A DNA stretch of 64,000 bases from Labia minor. Lineage: Eukaryota > Arthropoda > Insecta > Dermaptera > Spongiphoridae. The notes below the pieces were generated by a model that did no database searches, was not told the origin of the DNA, and was given only the letters and a program-made list of their open reading frames with translations. The position numbers and the translations under genes were made by a program. Shown piece after piece: positions 4,824 through 64,000 of the stretch; the first letter of the stretch is position 1; every line of letters begins with the position of its first letter. The DNA is taken from contig OY720345.1 of assembly GCA_963082975.1 (NCBI GenBank), forward strand, positions 57,828,528 to 57,892,527, read 5' to 3'.

Positions 4824-5177
4824 TTAAATGTGGCTCTGCCGAACTCGAAAGTTCTTGGCCGCAGCAACCACACCCCTCCAAGTATTTCTATTCTGAGCCA
4901 CAACCTTCCAGTCCCTATCCTCTCCCACATTATCCACCCACCGTGTCCTTGGTCTTCCAAGTGGACGTTTCCCACTCGGTCTCCCTACCATTATATTTTT
5001 CGCCATTCTATCTTCTCCCATTCTAGCCACGTGTCCTGCCCACCGCAGCCTTCTCGATTTTATAAATCTAACTATATCTGGAGATGCATAAAGGTCATGC
5101 AATTCCTCGTTATGCAATCTCCGCCATTCCCCGGTGACCTCATCTTTCTTTGGCCCAGAAATGCTTCGCAGAAATAA
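4824..5177 (-). pseudogene. Non-LTR retrotransposon reverse-transcriptase C-terminal tail, 5'-truncated
   Basis: On the minus strand, about 118 codons stay open to a stop at 4824. Reading from 5176 the protein begins FLRSISGPKKDEVTGEWRR, then HNEELHDLY, then SRRLRWAGHVARMGEDRMAK, then GKRPLGRPRTRWVDNV, and ends in NTWRGVVAAAKNF. This is the known C-terminal signature downstream of the polymerase domain in insect jockey/CR1-like LINEs. An in-frame stop and simple AT-rich DNA precede it, so everything upstream (endonuclease, catalytic YADD region) is missing. That is typical of 5' truncation during target-primed reverse transcription. The frame is intact, whereas the copy at 25281-25530 has stops, so this copy is younger. 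A (TAAA)-like 3' tail region lies at 4815-4830. The protein is not functional as it stands. Confidence 0.88.
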
Positions 5178-7061
5178 ATTAAATTAAATTATTAAATAAA
5201 TAAATTATACAAATATGTGGTGTATTAATACAAATCCATTTAATATGTTTGAATCATTTAAAAATATAATTTACTTTTTTTTGTTTAATATTAAAAATTG
5301 TAGTGTAATAAATAAATTTAATAATTTTAATTAGTAAAAAAAATTAGTTAATTGCTTCCAGTTAGAGATTCAGTATGTTTATTAATGCCCCTTTGATCGT
5401 TTAATTGAAGGGAGTGCAGATTGAAATTTAATCGTCTCTGTTCGTGATTTCATATTATAATCCAAATTATAATAATCAAATAAAAAAATAAACTCCATCC
5501 TTGAGGGAATCTTAAGAAATGGAATAAATAAGATTTCTTAGAATCATATTATATATATATATATATATACATTATATACCTATATACGAAGGTATATAAA
5601 AAGTGAATATGATATCTGAATGTAAATGAAGAATGAGCTCATGTAAGGTTCTATTAAATCTCTCTTTTGAATATTTTTTTTTATTTATTTCATAACCAAA
5701 GGGACAAAGACATCAAAACTCGATATCAACAATATTAGCATACACCCCCGAAGAATTATGTATTGAGCGTGAGTTGTGTTGATGAAAGTGAAAATAAAAT
5801 CATTTGGGAGAGGGGGTGGCACGTAACAAGCAAACAGGGGAGCCTAATCGCTGGCAACATAAAAGGAAAAAAAAAGCAATTTCCAATTCACATAAAAAAG
5901 GGTTAAATAAAATCCAGCTTGAATGGTAAGATTATTGATAGAAATCTTATTTTAGAATCCTCCACCCCTTAAAAAGAATTATTTTTCATATCTTTTTTTT
6001 TTCTTTCTTCTACGATATTTAACTAAAAGATAATTGACATTGCATGTAAATTCTATCTAAGATATAAACAGAGACACAGTTTGGATCCCTTTGGTTAAGA
6101 CAACAAAAAAAAAAGTTTTTAAAAAGAAAAAGAGAGGAAAAAAAAATAAATAAATTCTTGAAAAGTTCTTCTTAAACAAAATTAGTTCAAATTAAATTTC
6201 CTTAATTTTTAAAATCATATTTTAAAAAAGATTATCTAAATGAAAAAATAAATAAGTAAATAAATAACATTCTTGATGAAACAAATTTTGAGATAATATA
6301 ATATTTTATATGTGGAAAAAAAGTTTATATTAAATGATTGATATTAATTTGAAAAAAATTAAAATTTTTAACGATGATTTTAAAAAATGATGATAACATT
6401 TTTATTACAATTATTTGAAAAAAATCTAATGCAATAATCAAATTTATATAAAAAAGTACATAAATAATTTATTTGAATATATCTTGGTTATTTAGAAATT
6501 TATTATTATTTATTCAAGACATAAGACTAAGGTGGCCCCTTTACAGTCATCCCAATTTCTATTTGTGCATTTGTATATGAATATTGTGTAGGAGTTTGGC
6601 GGTTATGGTCTGGATTGCTTTTACATCCTATCTAATAGAATAATGACTTAGGAAATAATAACTATATCTATAAATATGAATGCATATATATAATATTTGC
6701 TATGGTGAGGCACAACATTAATATTCACCATACTAATGAATTGCAAAAAAATTTGCAGAGTTGAAATTTAATATCAGAAGATGAATACTGAAAAAAAAAA
6801 TAAACGAATTGGCTGGATTCAATTATCTTTCTTTTCTTTGTTTTTTTTATTTATTTTAATTATTTTTTTAGTTACCACAAATAAAAAAAAAGTTTAAGTA
6901 ACTTATTAAAATAAAAATATTTTTTATACTTTTACAATATAATCAAAATTGACCATAATTATAGATAATATATATAAATATCTATATAATAAATACCAAA
7001 TACAAATTCTATAATTCTTATAATTTGATTAGAAATTGGGGAACATAATAATTAGTTAATA
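5178..7061. other. AT-rich non-coding stretch
   Basis: No gene supported. Contains (AT)n at about 5550-5570. Two small mixed-composition patches, 5345-5450 and 6525-6650 (the latter with ATTTGTGCATTTGTATATG), could be regulatory. Otherwise it is homopolymer-rich DNA. Confidence 0.5.
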
Positions 7062-14708: not shown

Positions 14709-15331
14709 TAAGTTGACCCGTGGCCAGGTCCGAACCGACCGACGGTATGAAGTAAATTAATTAGCGGCTACAGAAACAATTTCAAATAATTTTAATATAT
14801 CTATTAATGTAATAAAAAACAGATATGGATACATAAATAATAAATATAAACATTTTTAATTTTATTTTATTTATAATATATATGCAAGACCAGGCTGTGA
14901 CGTCATGAATGGCTGGATGACGTCATATAATTTTAAATCAAGAAAAAACTAATAAATATGATTTTCCCGAGGATAAAACCAATACAAAGTGTATGATTCG
15001 TGGTGATATATAAAAAAATCTCCTCATGTGAAATTTTGTGTGAAAATAACCCTTCCCTTCCTATCGTCGATCGCTAATACTACCACTTCCGGTTTCCGGA
15101 TTTGCACCAAAAGTTGATCAATTCATCCCACTGATGCATTAAGTAAATATACCAATTTTCATCAAAATCGGTTGGGCCGTTCAGGCTGTACACATCTATA
15201 CGGACGGACAGACATCATGCTAAAAATACTTTTTTCTGTTAAGAAAATGCATGATTCGTGGAGATATGTAAAAATCTCCACATGTGAAATTTGGTGTGAA
15301 AACAATACCTCCCTTACTATCGTCGGTCGGT
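14709..15331 (-). mobile_element. HINE-A (non-autonomous Helentron-like), full-length copy
   Basis: Shown on the plus strand, the 3' terminus is TAAGTTGACCCGTGGCCAGG, a stem-loop with a TGGC loop, followed by the subterminal repeat ACCGACCGACGG. The other end is CTATCGTCGGTCGGT followed by AAAAA. Between them lie two TGACGTCA palindromes (14898-14905 and 14918-14925), an ETS-like CCGGTTTCCGG block, the core ATACCAATTTTCATC and a short GGACGGACAGAC microsatellite. Copies at 31019 and 54691 are near-identical over the full length. There is no coding capacity. The flanks are oligo-A/T, consistent with insertion between T residues. Confidence 0.78.
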
Positions 15332-25280: not shown

Positions 25281-25530
25281 CTACGGAACTCGAACGTTCT
25301 TGGCCGCAGGAACCACATTTCTCCAAGTGTCCCTATCCTGAGACACAACCATCCAACTCCTACCCACTCCCATCTCTTTCTTGTCCCTTTCTACATTGTC
25401 CACCCACCGCGTACTTGGTCTTCCTAGCAGACCTTTCCCAATTGGTCTTGCCACCAATATATTTTTCGCCATTCTTTCCTCTCCCAGTCTAACCACGTGC
25501 ACTGCCCATCACAGGTTTCTCGATTATATA
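25281..25530 (-). pseudogene. Non-LTR retrotransposon reverse-transcriptase tail, degraded
   Basis: The minus strand encodes HVVRLGEERMAKNILV, then LGRPSTRWVDNVERDKKEMG, then SQDRDTWRNVVPAAKNVRVP. It is collinear with the tail at 4824-5177 but has stop codons in the expected RRLRWAGHV segment. It keeps a KKEMGV segment that the 4824 copy has lost, so the two are independent insertions. Only the 3' end of the LINE remains. Confidence 0.82.
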
Positions 25531-28265: not shown

Positions 28266-31018
28266 TATAAATATGTGAAATATAATTAGTTATATTCAAT
28301 TATATGTTTTAAGGGGAGAATTATTTGTAAGTAATTATCAAAATATTTGAAATTTGAATCCCATTCTCAAGTTCATTAGTTTAGTATTTTATTATTAATA
28401 CTATGTAAAAAAAATGTTGACTTATATTAAATTATATTTTTTGAAGAGAAAATTATTTGTGAATTATTATCAAAACTATAATTCAAATTTTTGACATGGA
28501 TTTTTTATTTAATTACAAAATTTTGTATTTTTTTTTTTATGTAAACAAATAAAATCTTTCAAAAAAGAGGCCAGAGTTATGAAACCAGGAAATACTAGTA
28601 ATAAATAGGTTAAGAATTTTGTGATTATTCAAATGAAACAGGAAATAGGACCACAGTAAATATAAATGAAATAAAGGAGGCTTTTTTGGTTGAAAATAAA
28701 TATTATTAAGACTTATTCTTATAAAGTCTGCAAATGATGAGCTTATATATATCTATCTCCGTATAGGTCGAAATCTATAATAAAATGAAATGATCTCGAA
28801 AAGAAATTAGAGTTCATTCATTTTGAAAATCCTTTACAACTTTAACCGGCTTAATTTTACATCATGAGGATATTATATTTATAGAAAAAAATTAAATGAA
28901 AAGCTTGGCAGTTGGATTAAGAGGGTTGGCTGCTCTTCTCTCTTCTCCCTCGACTGAAATGGCCCTTAGAGGCAAGTCACCCTTCACGCTCTTGACATTC
29001 CTGCTTTCACAATGATTAATCATTTTTATTAAATTCTATATATTTATTTATCTTCTTTGCACTCTTTCAAATTATATTAACGAATAGAATATTTTGGTCG
29101 AGATCGTTCCAAGCATACCTGTTGCTTTGATTTCTTTTATTATTAATGAAGCACGATATTACTTTTTATCGTCCAATGGATTATTTATTGGAACTATAAA
29201 ATAATATTACACATTCTACATCTTAGAAAGTAATGGACTTAGTTACTAATTAATAAATAATAAAAAACAACAACAACAACAACACAATTTTAATATATTT
29301 TACGATCTAGTTAAATATACTTCAAAAACAGCCCCTGTAGGACAGCTACCAAATATACACGTTAACTCCTAACTAATTCTAAGAAGTGTAATTCTCATTA
29401 TTCTTTTTGTTTAAATTACAAAAGGTTGACAAATTGACAATATCTCTGAGAATTAGTTAAGATTAAATTAGATTAGATTAGATAAATAATATATATAATG
29501 ATAACTGATTCAAAATAGAATACTTAACAATTTCTAGTTTATAATTTTTAAGGATAAATGATCATAAATAAAATCACTGAAACATTTATCTAAAAATATG
29601 TTGTAACCACTTTAGACACTTACAAAACAATAATAAGGAAAAGAGAGGGTAATTTAATTTGAAATTTCGTTGACATCTCAGTTAAATGCTTCTTTAAGTT
29701 CTACTTTGAAACGGTAATCAACGAAAAAAACAACAACAAAGGGTTGGGGTTGTTGGAATGTAACGTCCTTTTGCGATTGCTGAAGAAGAAAAACTGTTCT
29801 ACGAAACGATAACGTAGCTTAAAAATAAAACTTTCCATAAAAATAACTCAACGCCTTATTTATCAACGTTCACATTCTCTGGAATAAAAGTTCATGGTGC
29901 AGAAAAAGTTTATGTGTGTTTAAAAAATAAAAATAAATAAACAAACCAACAAACAAATCTGAAATTGTAGCAGAATTAAAATATACATATAAATTTTTTT
30001 AATTTAACAATTTAATTATAGTAATTAGTATAAGTATTTAATTATGAGGTAATCTAACCAACAACGTGATAATTTAAATAAGAAGACATTGGATAATAAA
30101 GTATTAATTATAAATATGAAAGTATACAATAATGAATAATAAAATATATGAGAACGCATGGTAAACAACAAATAAATATAACATGAATAAAAATTGTTTT
30201 ATAATGTGAGGTTGATAATTATGTGTGATATCTTAATAAATTGAAAATAAAATATGCACACAAGGAGTATTTATTTATTTTCTCTGTAAAATGACGGTTA
30301 TATTCACCATTAATAAAAAAAATGTAAACGGAATTAAAAGCATAAATAATATAGCTCATGAAATTTTAAAAATCATTGAATGAATGTAATTTTAGATTAA
30401 TATTATTCTGTAAGCCTAGTTCGAGGTTACCTTTACTAATCGGATTTCGCTAGGTGTTTATTATAGTCAGATTATTGATATTAACACATTAATCAATATA
30501 TATATATATATAAATTTCAATGTATGTATGTATGTATGTACTTATTTATTTTATATGTTGTAAATAAGAAGGAAAATAAAAATAAAAAATTTGATGAATT
30601 TAAATAATTTATTTTATTGACCAGGATTCGGCCGGGATGGCAACATATAATTCAAAGACTTATACTTATAAAAAAAAACTAAAATAAAGAATGAACAAAT
30701 TAGTAGTAAATTAGTAGTAAATTATGAATAATATATATATATGTTTACAATTGGTTATTTTTTTTTTCTTTCACTCACCGTGACAAACGATAATTTTTTA
30801 ATTTGAGTAGTGATTCACATATATATTTTAAAGATGATAAGATACTTTAAATTTTCAAATTCACAAGAGAGAAGACGATACGGCAACGCAGAAAAAAAGT
30901 GAGCTGGGCAACAATCGACAATCACTCGTCACCAGAGGGAAGCTGAGCGCGAAATTTTAAACGTTACAATGTATGTAAAAAAAGGTAAAATGTTTTTGCG
31001 ATCAGTCTCTTAATCATT
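28266..31018. other. AT-rich non-coding stretch
   Basis: No gene supported. Simple tracts include (CAA)n near 29271-29283, (GATTA)n near 29465-29482 and (ATGT)n near 30521-30541. A small mixed-composition patch lies at 28915-29010. Confidence 0.5.
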
Positions 31019-31638
31019 TCCGATTTTAAGGGAGGTATTGTTTTCACACCAAATTTCACATGTGGAGATTTTTACATATCTCCACGAATCATGCATTTTC
31101 TTAACAGAATAAAGTATTTTTAGCATGATGTCTGTCCGTCCGTATAGATGTGTACAGCCTGAACGGCTGAACGGATTTTGATGAAATTTGGTATATTTAC
31201 TTAATGCATCAGTGGGATGAATTGATCAACTTTTGGTGCAAATCCGGAAACCGGAAGTGGTAGTATTAGCGATCGACGATAAGAAGGGAAGGGTTATTTT
31301 CGCACCAAATTTCACATAAGGAGATTTTTTTACATATCACCACGAATGTATTGGTTTTATCCTCGGGAAAAATCATCTTCATTATGTTTTTCTTAATTTA
31401 AAATTATATGACGTCACCCAGCCCTTCATGATGTCACAGCCTGGGGTAACGCCGGCAACGCCGGCTACTTCAGCTATATATTATAAATAAAATAAAATTA
31501 AAAATATTTATGTTATATGCCTATATGTTTTTTATTACATTAATAGATATATTAAAATTATTTGAAATTGTTTCTGTAGCTGGAAATTAATTTATTTCAA
31601 ACCGTCGGTCGGTTCGGACCTGGCCACAGGTCAACTTA
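31019..31638 (+). mobile_element. HINE-A, full-length copy, opposite orientation to 14709
   Basis: It runs from a mutated 5' end (CCGATTTTAAGGGAGG in place of CCGACGATAGTAAGGGAGG) through TGTCTGTCCGTCCG and GATGAAATTTGGTATATT to CCGTCGGTCGG and the terminal stem-loop GACCTGGCCACAGG, ending CAACTTA. One of its two TGACGTCA sites is mutated to TGATGTCA. It differs from all other copies by a 30-bp replacement (about 31444-31475) holding a GCCGGC-AAC-GCCGGC inverted repeat. Confidence 0.78.
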
Positions 31639-46375: not shown

Positions 46376-47379
46376 GAAACTCAAATCTTATAAAAACCCG
46401 TGAATTTAACCCGGAAATACATTTTCATAATATATATGATGATATAACCAGACTTATATACATATTAATTTACAATTAATGCATAAACTAAAAGCCACCC
46501 CCTTCCATTCCCAAATTTCAAGCTGTTTATCAAACCTTAAATTGAAAATGTATTCAAAATAAATGAATAGAATTATTAAATTATCTTTAGAATGAAACGA
46601 ATGAAATACATGTATATATCCTAAAAACGGATTAAACATTTTCAACCATAAAATGACTAAATGAACCAAATAAATTCAAGAAAATAAAATTGTACAATTT
46701 TGGCAATGAATGAATGCATTAGTAGTACTTATTAAAAATTTATTTGAACAATTTTATTATATAATGGTCGGTTTGAATGTAAAAACAGTATAATTATAAT
46801 TAATTAATAATAATTTGATATATTACTGAAAGTTTTCTAGTGGAACTTTGTGTTGACTAAATATTTCGCTAAATTCATGTTTTTCTTTTTGGTTCGATGA
46901 TAATAACTTCAAGTATATATATATATATATATATATGTAATAAAGTTATTTGAAATTTAAAAATATTAGTCAGATGAACAGAAATGTTCAGTGAGAAAGT
47001 AAAAAAACAAAACAAAATTCTAGTTTAAAATTAAAGAGAAGCAGGCAGGCAAGAGGAAAATTGATTACAATCAAGATCCAAACTAATTAGAAGATGGTAA
47101 CGAATATCGAGGTGAAAACTACTTTTCAAGTATCTAGATGGTTAAGAGAATTTTAATTATATGTTTAAAAATAAATAATATAAAATGTAAAAAAGAAAAT
47201 GAAAAATAAAGTTTTTAAAATAGCCAACCCTCTTTAGTAATTATTCGAGGATTAGATTAAAATCTTTAAAACTTTTATCATGATGTTAATTCAGTTGCTG
47301 TCTCTTAATTAAATTAGTTTTTATAAGAATATGAAGGAGTAAAAGGGTGAAGTTGGAGGCGATGATTGAAAAAGGAAAA
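46376..47379. other. AT-rich non-coding stretch
   Basis: (AT)n at 46914-46935. No gene supported. Confidence 0.45.
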
Positions 47380-54420: not shown

Positions 54421-54585
54421 AAAGTTAAAAATTTCGATAAGATTTATGAATTTAAAAAATTAATTTAATATTTGTTTCTTATTAGCTATATGATTCAATT
54501 TCTATAAACTATATGAATTGAAACATTGATTTGTGACATAAACATTATCAATATAAATAATATAATATATTAATTTATTAAATAT
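54421..54585 (+). repeat. Repeat C, left part (split by nested HINE-A)
   Basis: Blocks TTCTTATTAGCTATATG, TATAAACTATATGAATTGAA and TTGATTTGTGACA recur in order at 57541-57720 and reverse-complemented at 57040-57150. The right part of the same repeat resumes at 55854, directly after the HINE-A insertion. Confidence 0.7.
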
Positions 54586-55853
54586 TTTTACCGACCGACG
54601 ATAGTAAGGGAGGTATTGTTTTCACACCAAATTTCACATGTGGAGATTTTTACATATCTCCACGAATCATGCATTTTCTTAACAGAAAAATAAGTTGACC
54701 TGTGGCCAGGTCCGAACCGACCGACTGTTTGAAATAAATTAATTTCCAGCTACAGAAACAATTTCAAATAATTTTAATATATCTATTAATGTAATAAAAA
54801 ACAGATATGGATACATAAATAATATATATAAACATTTTTAATTTTATTTTATTTATAATATATATGCAAGACCAGGCTGTGACGTCATGAATGGCTGGAT
54901 GACGTCATATAATTTTAAATCAAGAAAAAACTAATAAATATGATTTTTCTCGAGGATAAAACCAATACAAAGTGCATGATTCGTGGTGATATATAAAAAA
55001 ATCTCGTTTGGCGTGAAAATAACCCTTTCCTTCCTATCGTCGATCGCTAATACTACCACTTCCGGTTTCCGGATTTGCACCAAAAGTTGATCAATTCATC
55101 CCACTGATGCATTAAGTAAATATACCAAATTTCATCAAAATCGGTTGAGCCGTTCAGGCTGTACACATCTATACGGACGGACGGACGGACAGACGGACGG
55201 ACAGACATCATGCTAAAAATACTTTTTTCTGTTTAGAAAATGCATGATTCGTGGAGATATGTAAAAATCTCCACATGTGAAATTTGGTGCGAAAACAATA
55301 CCTCCCTTACTATCGTCGGTCGGTAAAAAAGTATTTTTAGCATGATGTCTGTCCGTCCGTCCGTATAGATGTGTACAGCCTGAACGGATTTTGATGAAAT
55401 TTGGTATATTTACTTAATGCATCAGTGGGATGAATTGATCAACTTTTGGTGCAAATCCGGAAACCGGAAGTGGTAGTATTAGCGATCGACGATAGGAAGG
55501 GAAGGGTTATTTTCACACCAAATTTCACATGAGGAGATTTTTTTATATATCACCACGAATCATGCACTTTGTATTGGTTTTATCCTCGGGAAAATCATAT
55601 TAGTTTTTTCTTGATTTAAAATTTTATGACGTCATCCAGCCATTCATGACGTCACAGCCTCGTCTTGCATATATATTATAAATAAAATAAAATTAAAAAT
55701 GTTTATATTTATTATTTATTTATCCATATCTGTTTTTTATTACATTCTATTAATGTAATAGATATATTAAAATTATTTGTTATTGTTTCTGTAACTGGAA
55801 ATTAATTTACTTCAAACCGTCGGTCGGTTCGGACCTGGCCACAGGTCAACTTA
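54586..55853 (+). mobile_element. HINE-A outer copy, split by a second HINE-A
   Basis: The 5' part is 54586-54690 (TTTTTACCGACCGACGATAG ... TTCTTAACAGAAAAA). The rest resumes at 55325-55853 (AAAAAAGTATTTTTAGCATG ... GGACCTGGCCACAGG, CAACTTA). Joined at the A tract, the two parts match the uninterrupted junction CTTAACAGAATAAAGTATTT of the copy at 31019. It carries both TGACGTCA sites (near 55627 and 55648), the core GATGAAATTTGGTATATT and the terminal stem-loop. The insertion splitting it lies in an oligo-A (T on the other strand) tract. Confidence 0.82.
54691..55324 (-). mobile_element. HINE-A inner copy, full-length, inserted in another HINE-A
   Basis: Full element from TAAGTTGACCTGTGGCCAGG (3' stem-loop) to CTATCGTCGGTCGGT, in opposite orientation to its host. 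Its (GGAC)n microsatellite is expanded here (about 55172-55203). Both TGACGTCA sites are intact. Because host sequence is known on both sides, this copy fixes the element ends to within the flanking A tract: 634 bp, with no target duplication beyond possible A residues. Confidence 0.85.
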
Positions 55854-56010
55854 TTTAAAACTGGAAAAATGTTAAATTTTGAGTGGTGTAGGTATTTTTT
55901 GGTTTTAATTTAAGATATTAGAATTAAATCACAAATAAGCCATCGTTCTGATGTCCACTTTAGGAATCGAGCCCATTATAAGAGATAAAAAATAATAAAT
56001 TAAGAATTTA
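55854..56010 (+). repeat. Repeat C, right part
   Basis: CTGGAAAAATG, AATTTTGAGTGGT, GGTTTTAATTTAA, ATATTAGAAT, CACAAATAAGCC and AATAATAAAT follow in the same order as at 57735-57890. It continues the left part at 54421-54585; the nested HINE-A pair separates them. Confidence 0.72.
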
Positions 56011-56950: not shown

Positions 56951-57039
56951 AAGTTAGCTGAGTGTAAAAAAAAAAATCAAGAAAATTTACTAAGATCCTG
57001 TCCATTCCACTAGAATAAGTTTTAAAATTTATAATTTAT

Positions 57040-57150
57040 TAAATGTTTATATCAATATTTCAATTCATATAGTTTATAAAAATTGAATTCTAATAGCTAA
57101 TATTAATAAGAAATTAAATATTAAAATATTTTTTAAATTCATAAACGTTT
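57040..57150 (-). repeat. Repeat C, inverted partial copy
   Basis: The minus strand reads CATAAACG-flanked AATTTAAAAAATATTTTAAT, TTTCTTATTAATATTAGCTA, ATAAACTATATGAATTGAA and ATATTGAT, matching the left part of repeat C. With the plus copy at 57541 it forms an inverted pair about 400 bp apart. Confidence 0.6.
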
Positions 57151-57540: not shown

Positions 57541-57890
57541 ACCTTATGAAACAAATCAATTCTGAAATGTCAATATACAAATTAAAAAAATAATTTACTA
57601 TCTGTTTCATATTATTATTAGCTACTTGAATTTTATTTTTATAAACTATATGAATTGAAATGTTGATTTGTGACACAAATATCAATATAAAAATATTGGT
57701 AAATAAAAAGTTTTTTTTTTAATTAAACCGACCAGGAAAAATGAACAATTTAATTTTGAGTGGTAAAGGTATTTTTTTTTTGTTTTAATTTAAAATATTA
57801 GAATAAAATAACAAATAAGCCCTCGGTCTTTTAACACTCCAATTGAGAAATCCAGTACATTTTGAGGGATAATAAATAATAAATTCGATT
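57541..57890 (+). repeat. Repeat C, uninterrupted copy (empty HINE-A site)
   Basis: It contains both halves of repeat C in order. At the place where the 54-kb copy holds HINE-A there is only AAAAAGTTTTTTTTTTTAATT and a short ACCGACCAGG. The poly-T fits the expected HINE-A target. The ACCGACC is either coincidence or a trace of a HINE-A end. Confidence 0.7.
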
Positions 57891-61620: not shown

Positions 61621-62874
61621 TATCAACGAGGAAATAAACATTGCAACTACTAACTTAGAAAAATAAATTACAAATATATATCTATAAAACAAAAATTGAT
61701 CGAATAAATAAATAAATTATAATAAAACATAGCATTTTATAGGATTATAAATAAACATAGCAATGGATGGATTCAACAGTTGACACTTGTTGAATCGCCA
61801 AACGCGTTCTACAATAATAAATGAATTGACCAGGATTGTTTGTTGTAGTCGGTAAGCTTAGCGGAAATCCGATTTCTTTTAAAACTAGATTGAGAAAACA
61901 TCTCGAATGGGAGGGACATCAACAACCGGTTGATATTTATTAGAATTAGTATGAATATTGACTTCTATCTAGTCGAAATAAATAATTTATTAAAATTATT
62001 CATTTAAAGAAAAAACAAAAAAATTAATAAATAATAAATATATTAAATAAAAATTACAATTTAATAAATTAATGTTCAATATGAAATTAAATTAGGTAAT
62101 TTAATATCAATGAAAATAAAGAATTTAAAAAATTTTTGATATGAAAAATTTATAATAAAAACTAGTATATATATGTATTATATATCTTATCTTATTATAC
62201 TAGCAAAAATTATATATATATCTTTGTATATTTTTCAGATAATAAACCGAAATTAACACCATAGATAACAATTATAAAGAAAAATCGATATAGGTTTAAG
62301 CTTAAGGAAAAATCAACTTTATTGTATTTTCTTAATTTAAAATAGCAAATATAAGTGACGTTCATTATGTCATCCATATTGAAATTTGACTCCCGCCTTT
62401 TTTTAATGTATTAATATTTGTTTATATTTAAAATTGTATATCAATATTTTTCAAAGGGTTGAGCGATAGACTTTAATAAAATTTTATAATAAACAATTTG
62501 AGGTTATTGAAAATAAGAGCAGACAAGGAATAAAAGATAATATATATTTATAATTAATCAAAAAATATATATAAAATTTAAGGTTTATAAGTAAATTACT
62601 AACCATAAATATAACAGTATATAATCAAAGAATACAATTTACAAATGTTATTTTTGAATGTTTTATAATTCAGTCAAAAAGAATAAAAAGATGCTAGATG
62701 TGGTAATTAATATGGAAATTTAATGTATTTAAGTTAATTTGTAAACCATAAAAAAAAATATTAAAAATTTAATTTTATATAAATTAAATTGTAGAAATTT
62801 TTCAAAGTAAATAGGTATTCCTTTTTGGTATAGTTGAAATAAATTTAATAACTTTTTACTAATCTAATTATAAC
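61621..62874. other. AT-rich non-coding stretch
   Basis: No gene supported. A patch at 62310-62385 (TATTTTCTTAATTTAAAAT, GTGACGTTCATTATGTCATCC) loosely resembles the TGACGTCA region of HINE-A but could not be bounded. Confidence 0.4.
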
Positions 62875-63837: not shown

Positions 63838-64000
63838 TGTGAAACAATTTCAAATAATTTAAATGTAAAACTATTAATGAAATTAAAAAATCAAATATAT
63901 GAATATAATATAAATATTTTTAATTTTATTTTAAGAATAGATATATATATCTCACAGGCGGTGGTTGTGACGTCATCCATATATTATAAATTTAAATTAA
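63838..64000 (-). mobile_element. HINE-A, diverged copy cut by window end
   Basis: GAAACAATTTCAAATAATTT, ATTTTTAATTTTATTTTA and GGTTGTGACGTCATCCATAT match the 3' half of HINE-A in order (compare 14775-14905). The stem-loop and the subterminal ACCGACCGACGG are not preserved. More of the copy may lie beyond 64000. Confidence 0.5.

Follow-up and report, generated by a model that had tools for sequence, protein, structure and literature searches.

The window, by which we mean the whole 64,000-nucleotide stretch of the Labia minor genome that was analyzed (contig OY720345.1), is AT-rich, with a GC content of 22–32% in 4-kb steps. BLASTN of the window against itself located four copies of a HINE-like element, designated c15k, c31k, inner and outer, the last of which is present as two pieces (Table 1). 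The first-pass annotation had placed the inner copy within an oppositely oriented outer copy that it splits, and this was confirmed; the outer copy in turn stands between two halves of a sequence designated repeat C. The inner copy is 92.4% identical to c15k and 84.0% identical to c31k, and its first 101 bases match the left piece of the outer copy at 98%. Shorter similarities to the element were seen at 62289–62343 and 63841–63976. The whole analysis rests on four copies within one window.

Table 1. Element copies and repeat C sequences in the window
Feature	Positions	Strand	Located or compared by
c15k, uninterrupted HINE-like copy, 623 bp; empty site for the inner insertion	14709–15331	minus	BLASTN, alignment, chimera
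c31k, HINE-like copy, 5′ subTIR lost or diverged; also an empty site for the inner insertion	31021–31638	plus	BLASTN, chimera
Inner complete HINE-like copy, 634-bp core, ACCGACCGACG...CAACTTA	54691–55324	minus	BLASTN, T counts, site comparison
Outer HINE-like copy, 5′ part; starts ACCGACCGACG, ends in the A tract holding the inner insertion	54590–54690	plus	
Outer HINE-like copy, 3′ part; subTIR CGTCGGTCGGT and palindrome GACCTGGCCACAGGTC near its end	55325–55853	plus	
Repeat C, left half; ends in a T5 tract (54585–54589) at the outer site	54443–54589	plus	
Repeat C, right half; starts TTT at the outer 3′ junction	55854–56001	plus	
Repeat C, diverged uninterrupted paralogue; T10 at 57711–57720, ACCGACC at 57727–57733	57579–57885	plus	
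Repeat C, partial third copy, left half only; ends near the outer insertion point	57014–57145	minus	

Only two stop-to-stop frames of at least 150 aa (167 and 151 aa) are present in the window. A Pfam scan of nine chosen frames, out of the 119 of at least 60 aa, identified no family at cut-off, and no gene of an autonomous Helentron was found in the window by that scan. A sub-threshold match to DUF3701 (E 0.033) fell in frame 4827–5183, which also holds RRLRWAGHVARM, presumably a LINE-like stretch, for which Pfam gave no confirmation. Frames 4827–5183 and 25284–25508, both on the minus strand, have a stretch in common (RRLRWAGHVARMGEDRMAKNI / HVVRLGEERMAKNI) that we take to resemble arthropod LINE remnants, with no Pfam family at cut-off. 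Rfam at its gathering threshold gave no match in the window, a result that does not rule out every SINE, and ARAGORN in its bacterial setting found no tRNA there.

Anatomy of the element copies

HINEs are described as carrying a subTIR near the 5′ end, another deeper inside the 3′ end and a 3′ palindrome (PMC4067079). In three of the four copies in the window, the 5′ end ACCGACCGACG has 5–6 Ts upstream, and the same three carry the 11-bp subTIR pair ACCGACCGACG / CGTCGGTCGGT, which agrees at 11 of 11 bases in outer and c15k and at 10 of 11 in inner. The fourth copy, c31k, has neither the 5′ subTIR nor a 5′ T tract. Most of the remainder of c31k is present, and the lack of a recognizable 5′ subTIR at 31000–31045 may reflect truncation, divergence or a different 5′ start. 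The 3′ subTIR sits 25–28 bp inside the 3′ end (36–39 bp when measured from its far edge), and three bases past it comes the 16-base palindrome GACCTGGCCACAGGTC, followed by AACTTA. This palindrome (GACCTG-GCCA-CAGGTC) is perfect in three of the four copies and has one changed base in c15k. The number of Ts directly after AACTTA is five in inner, three in each of outer and c15k, and two in c31k.

Folding predictions covered the 3′ ends of outer and c15k and the 5′ end of outer. The outer 3′ end was predicted to fold as the palindrome hairpin (z −3.2, matched by 1 of 200 shuffles), and a further short stem, of 5 bp, was predicted over its subTIR, the 3′ subTIR region being partly palindromic. 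For the c15k 3′ end the prediction favored a fold other than the palindrome hairpin (z −1.8, matched by 13/200 shuffles), and the predicted fold of the outer 5′ end was no better than those of shuffles (z −0.1). A GTCC microsatellite comes after the 5′ module. Positions 3–88 of the c15k element are carried again at 259–346 with 84% identity, and this doubled 5′ module suggests a composite origin of the element. The two modules of c15k are separated by the GTCC microsatellite and other spacer.

The inner and outer insertion sites

Insertion sites were assessed by aligning a chimera of the two 50-bp insertion flanks to homologous sites, for which 90% identity over 90% of the 50+50 bp chimera has been used as the standard for an empty site (PMC4067079). 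Coverage of the inner chimera was 1.00 in all three comparisons. Identity was 91.0% with gaps and 100% without gaps (no substitution) for c15k, 90.0% and 98.9% (one substitution) for c31k, and 81.0% and 98.9% (one substitution) for the inner copy's own homologous site. By that standard, c15k (91.0%) and c31k (90.0%) are both empty sites for the inner insertion, and the lower value for the inner copy's own site is due to a microsatellite gap. The sole change at the junction, in all three comparisons, was a gain of five Ts (11 versus 6), the remaining gaps of 4, 4 and 16 bp (c15k, c31k and own site, respectively) being those of the GTCC microsatellite. The tract before insertion, AAAAAA in both c15k and inner and AATAAA in c31k, reads T6 and TTTATT, respectively, on the strand of the inner element, and after insertion six Ts stand before ACCGACC of the inner copy and five after its CAACTTA. 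The annotated location of the inner insertion in an A/T tract of the outer copy was thus correct, the tract being T6 on the inner strand. In the 623-bp c15k this tract is the only A-run of at least six, positions inside such A-runs making up 0.8% of the copy; T-runs of at least six occur at three other places in c15k, on the other strand. When the two halves of the outer copy were joined as the first-pass annotation had proposed, they aligned contiguously with uninterrupted c31k (31021–31638) and also with c15k. The inner insertion event is precise.

It had also been claimed that the nest fixes the ends of the element. This was overstated, because the five extra Ts are indivisible between element and target, and the ends may lie at different points within the T tract. 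These Ts may represent a T-only duplication at the inner site. The flanks of outer and c15k have T5 on the 5′ side and T3 on the 3′ side, and c31k has T2 on its 3′ side. The longest string common to the two 20-bp flanks of a copy was 5, 5, 4 and 4 bp in the four copies, which is the level of random flank pairs (mean 4.3 bp; 175 of 500 reach 5 bp), and no target duplication beyond Ts was seen in these flanks. The pattern found is therefore one of oligo-T insertion without duplication of other sequence, and the proposed lack of an ordinary target duplication was borne out for non-T sequence. A fixed duplication of at least 4 bp is disfavored, barring later T loss, because outer and c15k carry just three Ts on the 3′ side. 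The target preference for oligo-T was likewise overstated as fixed: it is well controlled at the inner site, but the outer site is seen only through a weak paralogue, c15k has T flanks but comes without an empty site of its own, and among the copies c31k departs from the pattern on its 5′ side.

At the outer site, positions 54449–54563 of the left half of repeat C are 81% identical to 57579–57696 of the paralogue, and from 54443 the left half also aligns with the partial copy at 57014–57145; the stretch 54564–54589, whose alignment has many gaps, was assigned by position. On the right, 55863–56001 is 77% identical to 57735–57885. When the two flanks were joined, they matched 57579–57885 at 75.6% (E 4e-54) in an alignment that spans the junction, and the partial copy matched them at 77.9%. 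The local score of the joined flanks was 276, whereas none of 300 dinucleotide shuffles scored above 56; the left half scored 136 (shuffle maximum 55) and the right half 144 (shuffle maximum 46), each likewise with 300 shuffles. Because the joined and half scores far exceed those of the shuffles, we conclude that repeat C was interrupted by the outer copy. The outer 50+50 bp chimera, however, aligned to the paralogue with a coverage of 0.91 and an identity of 70.8% with gaps and 90.4% without, so that this site falls short of the empty-site standard. The join is not clean, since several indels surround the junction. Thus, the description of repeat C as running on both sides of the outer copy, with a paralogue carrying a poly-T (T10) near the insertion point, stands, but this paralogue, being only about 76% alike and changed where the junction falls, is weak evidence, and the outer insertion event is approximate, unlike the precise inner one. 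The outer copy, annotated at 54586–55853, was confirmed as a split copy, but its core begins at 54590, after T5.

The repeat C paralogue has ACCGACC, the first seven bases of the element, at the junction. Across the window the motif was found at ten sites, four reading ACCGACC on the plus strand (14734, 54590, 54716 and 57727) and six reading its complement GGTCGGT (15325, 31607, 46766, 53779, 55318 and 55822). Of these ten, three (46766, 53779 and 57727) belong to none of the four element copies. Its presence at the repeat C junction may be due to chance, or it may be a part of repeat C or a scar. It was noticed post hoc that AACCGACCA is readable outside the element copies at 57727 (plus strand) and at 46766 and 53779 (minus strand), which by a hand estimate from base composition, likewise made after the fact, is more than expected. 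The two other copies of repeat C, at 57014–57145 (minus) and 57579–57885 (plus), are inverted relative to each other and approximately 430 bp apart.

Age order and alternative explanations

By nesting alone, repeat C is the oldest of the three sequences, followed by the outer and then the inner copy. The age order given in the first-pass annotation is supplied by this nesting, but divergence adds nothing to it, because inner, outer and c15k each have seven private substitutions in a four-way alignment scored with gapped columns left out (c31k has 25). Pairwise substitutions numbered 15/604 between inner and outer, 18/613 between inner and c15k and 14/610 between outer and c15k, and of the remaining sites in the four-way alignment one unites c31k with inner and two fall into other classes, whereas inner and outer are united by none. 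From these counts we infer that inner, outer and c15k probably arose from similar sources within a short time.

The inverted pair could in principle have arisen from a single element by local inverted duplication, through template switching or hairpin copying, in view of the adjacency and inverted orientation of the copies and the 88.9% identity of inner positions 97–634 to the right part of outer. Against this, the inner copy, which is contained within outer, is complete and has T-flanked ends of its own. Moreover, no site groups the two, so that it does not resemble a copy made locally from outer, to which it is not specially close in pairwise substitutions, and we regard such a duplication as extremely improbable. 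Misassembly of a repeat-rich region would be a concern for any nest known from an assembly rather than from reads, inverted repeats of the same family being prone to it, but the join at the inner site, in a T tract, is exact to the base, and private substitutions and indels set the copies apart, which makes an artefact highly improbable.

The inverted repeats near both ends would also suit a MITE, that is, a terminal-inverted-repeat element that is mobilized by a DDE transposase and duplicates only Ts of its target, and the five extra Ts at the inner site could then be a TTTTT duplication. The 3′ inverted repeat, however, is set 25–28 bp in from the end and is followed by a palindrome. A duplication of five Ts at the inner site is not matched by outer and c15k, with just three on the 3′ side, and because the 3′ T counts differ, any one fixed duplication length could apply only if Ts had later been lost or gained. 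Given this variation in flanking Ts among the copies, and with no non-T duplication seen, the assignment to TIR transposons or MITEs was rejected and is very unlikely to be correct. A canonical Helitron, which is described as having 5′ TC and 3′ CTRR termini and inserting between A and T (PMC4067079), was also considered and rejected, the junctions here reading T-ACCGACC...CAACTTA-T.

Relation to published Helentrons

The nest is very probably the product of two successive insertions of one family of non-autonomous Helentrons (HINEs). Less in keeping with this assignment are the failure to find an autonomous Helentron among the window frames scanned, the lack of a DINE-1-type inverted repeat next to the 5′ subTIR as judged by eye, the 5′ end of c31k and the predicted fold of the c15k 3′ end. 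The first-pass reading of a HINE-A within a HINE-A within repeat C was sound in that opposite copies of the same family lie inside an older repeat, but its conclusions went too far. HINEs have T-rich targets with a variable number of boundary Ts (2 to 5 in Culex), and their insertion without target modification was considered by the authors to be consistent with a single-stranded intermediate; comparable conclusions, with the same ambiguity over Ts, are thus already published (PMC4067079). As described there, the HINEs of Metaseiulus occidentalis, Culex and Drosophila resemble the element here, by description, in their subTIRs, 3′ palindrome, T-rich target, variable boundary Ts, absence of target duplication and lack of coding capacity. 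The subTIRs of the mite HINEs are partly palindromic, as predicted for the 3′ subTIR region here, but are 12–15 bp long compared with 11 bp, and the distance from the 3′ subTIR to the 3′ end is ~38–60 bp in the mite compared with 25–28 bp here (36–39 bp from the far edge). As far as that account goes (PMC4067079), the mite HINEs likewise are without an inverted repeat beside the 5′ subTIR. DINE-1/INE-1 of Drosophila is similar in general layout, microsatellite and TT preference (PMC4067079) but differs in its inverted repeat beside the 5′ subTIR, none of which was seen here on inspection by eye.

The Cg_HINEs of the oyster Crassostrea gigas are alike, again by description, in their 11–12 bp subTIRs, 3′ palindrome and oligo-T (T-rich) insertion, and they too insert into other repeats; several carry a GTCC/GTCY microsatellite in the left module, as here, but they are described with tandem arrays of mostly 140–180 bp units where the present element has instead a second 5′ module of 84% identity (PMC7492417). 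Exact searches for a 22-base 5′ pattern, together with a 28-base 3′ pattern, gave no matches in viral contigs, nor did a 24-base pattern in prokaryote genome contigs or a blastn search of phage records with the inner copy at settings for distant similarity, but this does not imply rarity because such collections would hardly hold an arthropod repeat and may omit records close to the genome of the window. A literature search with a 14-letter stretch of the 3′ end found no paper, and the family may still have been described.

From what was observed here, namely the nest and the order of its parts, the T tract of the inner site with its additional Ts, and the terminal anatomy, the following course of events may be proposed. 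A first HINE would have placed a copy at a T-rich point in repeat C, which was already present, and a later copy, in the opposite orientation, would have entered the sole T6 tract that the first copy offered on that strand. By analogy with the published Helentron model, both would have moved by rolling-circle transposition, for which an autonomous Helentron at another genomic location would have supplied the Rep/helicase/endonuclease. The subTIRs and 3′ hairpin would be the putative signals for recognition and termination, and the intermediate, in single-stranded form, would be joined between Ts, so that other sequence would not be duplicated.

The nest is ordinary behavior for a known kind of element, and it agrees with published Helentrons and goes no further. 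A wider reading, which we consider improbable, is that HINE-A is itself the product of an earlier nested or tandem event, with the 5′ module present twice, and that ACCGACC in repeat C is the scar of an earlier HINE insertion. If the former were true, the joining of one element to the 5′ end of another may be a source of new HINE families, and if the latter were true, this T tract of repeat C would be a recurrent target. What the locus provides is a single HINE insertion that is clean and internally controlled, its target being shown by two uninterrupted copies and by a third homologous site, and its main use is in the annotation of this HINE family and its T-rich targets.
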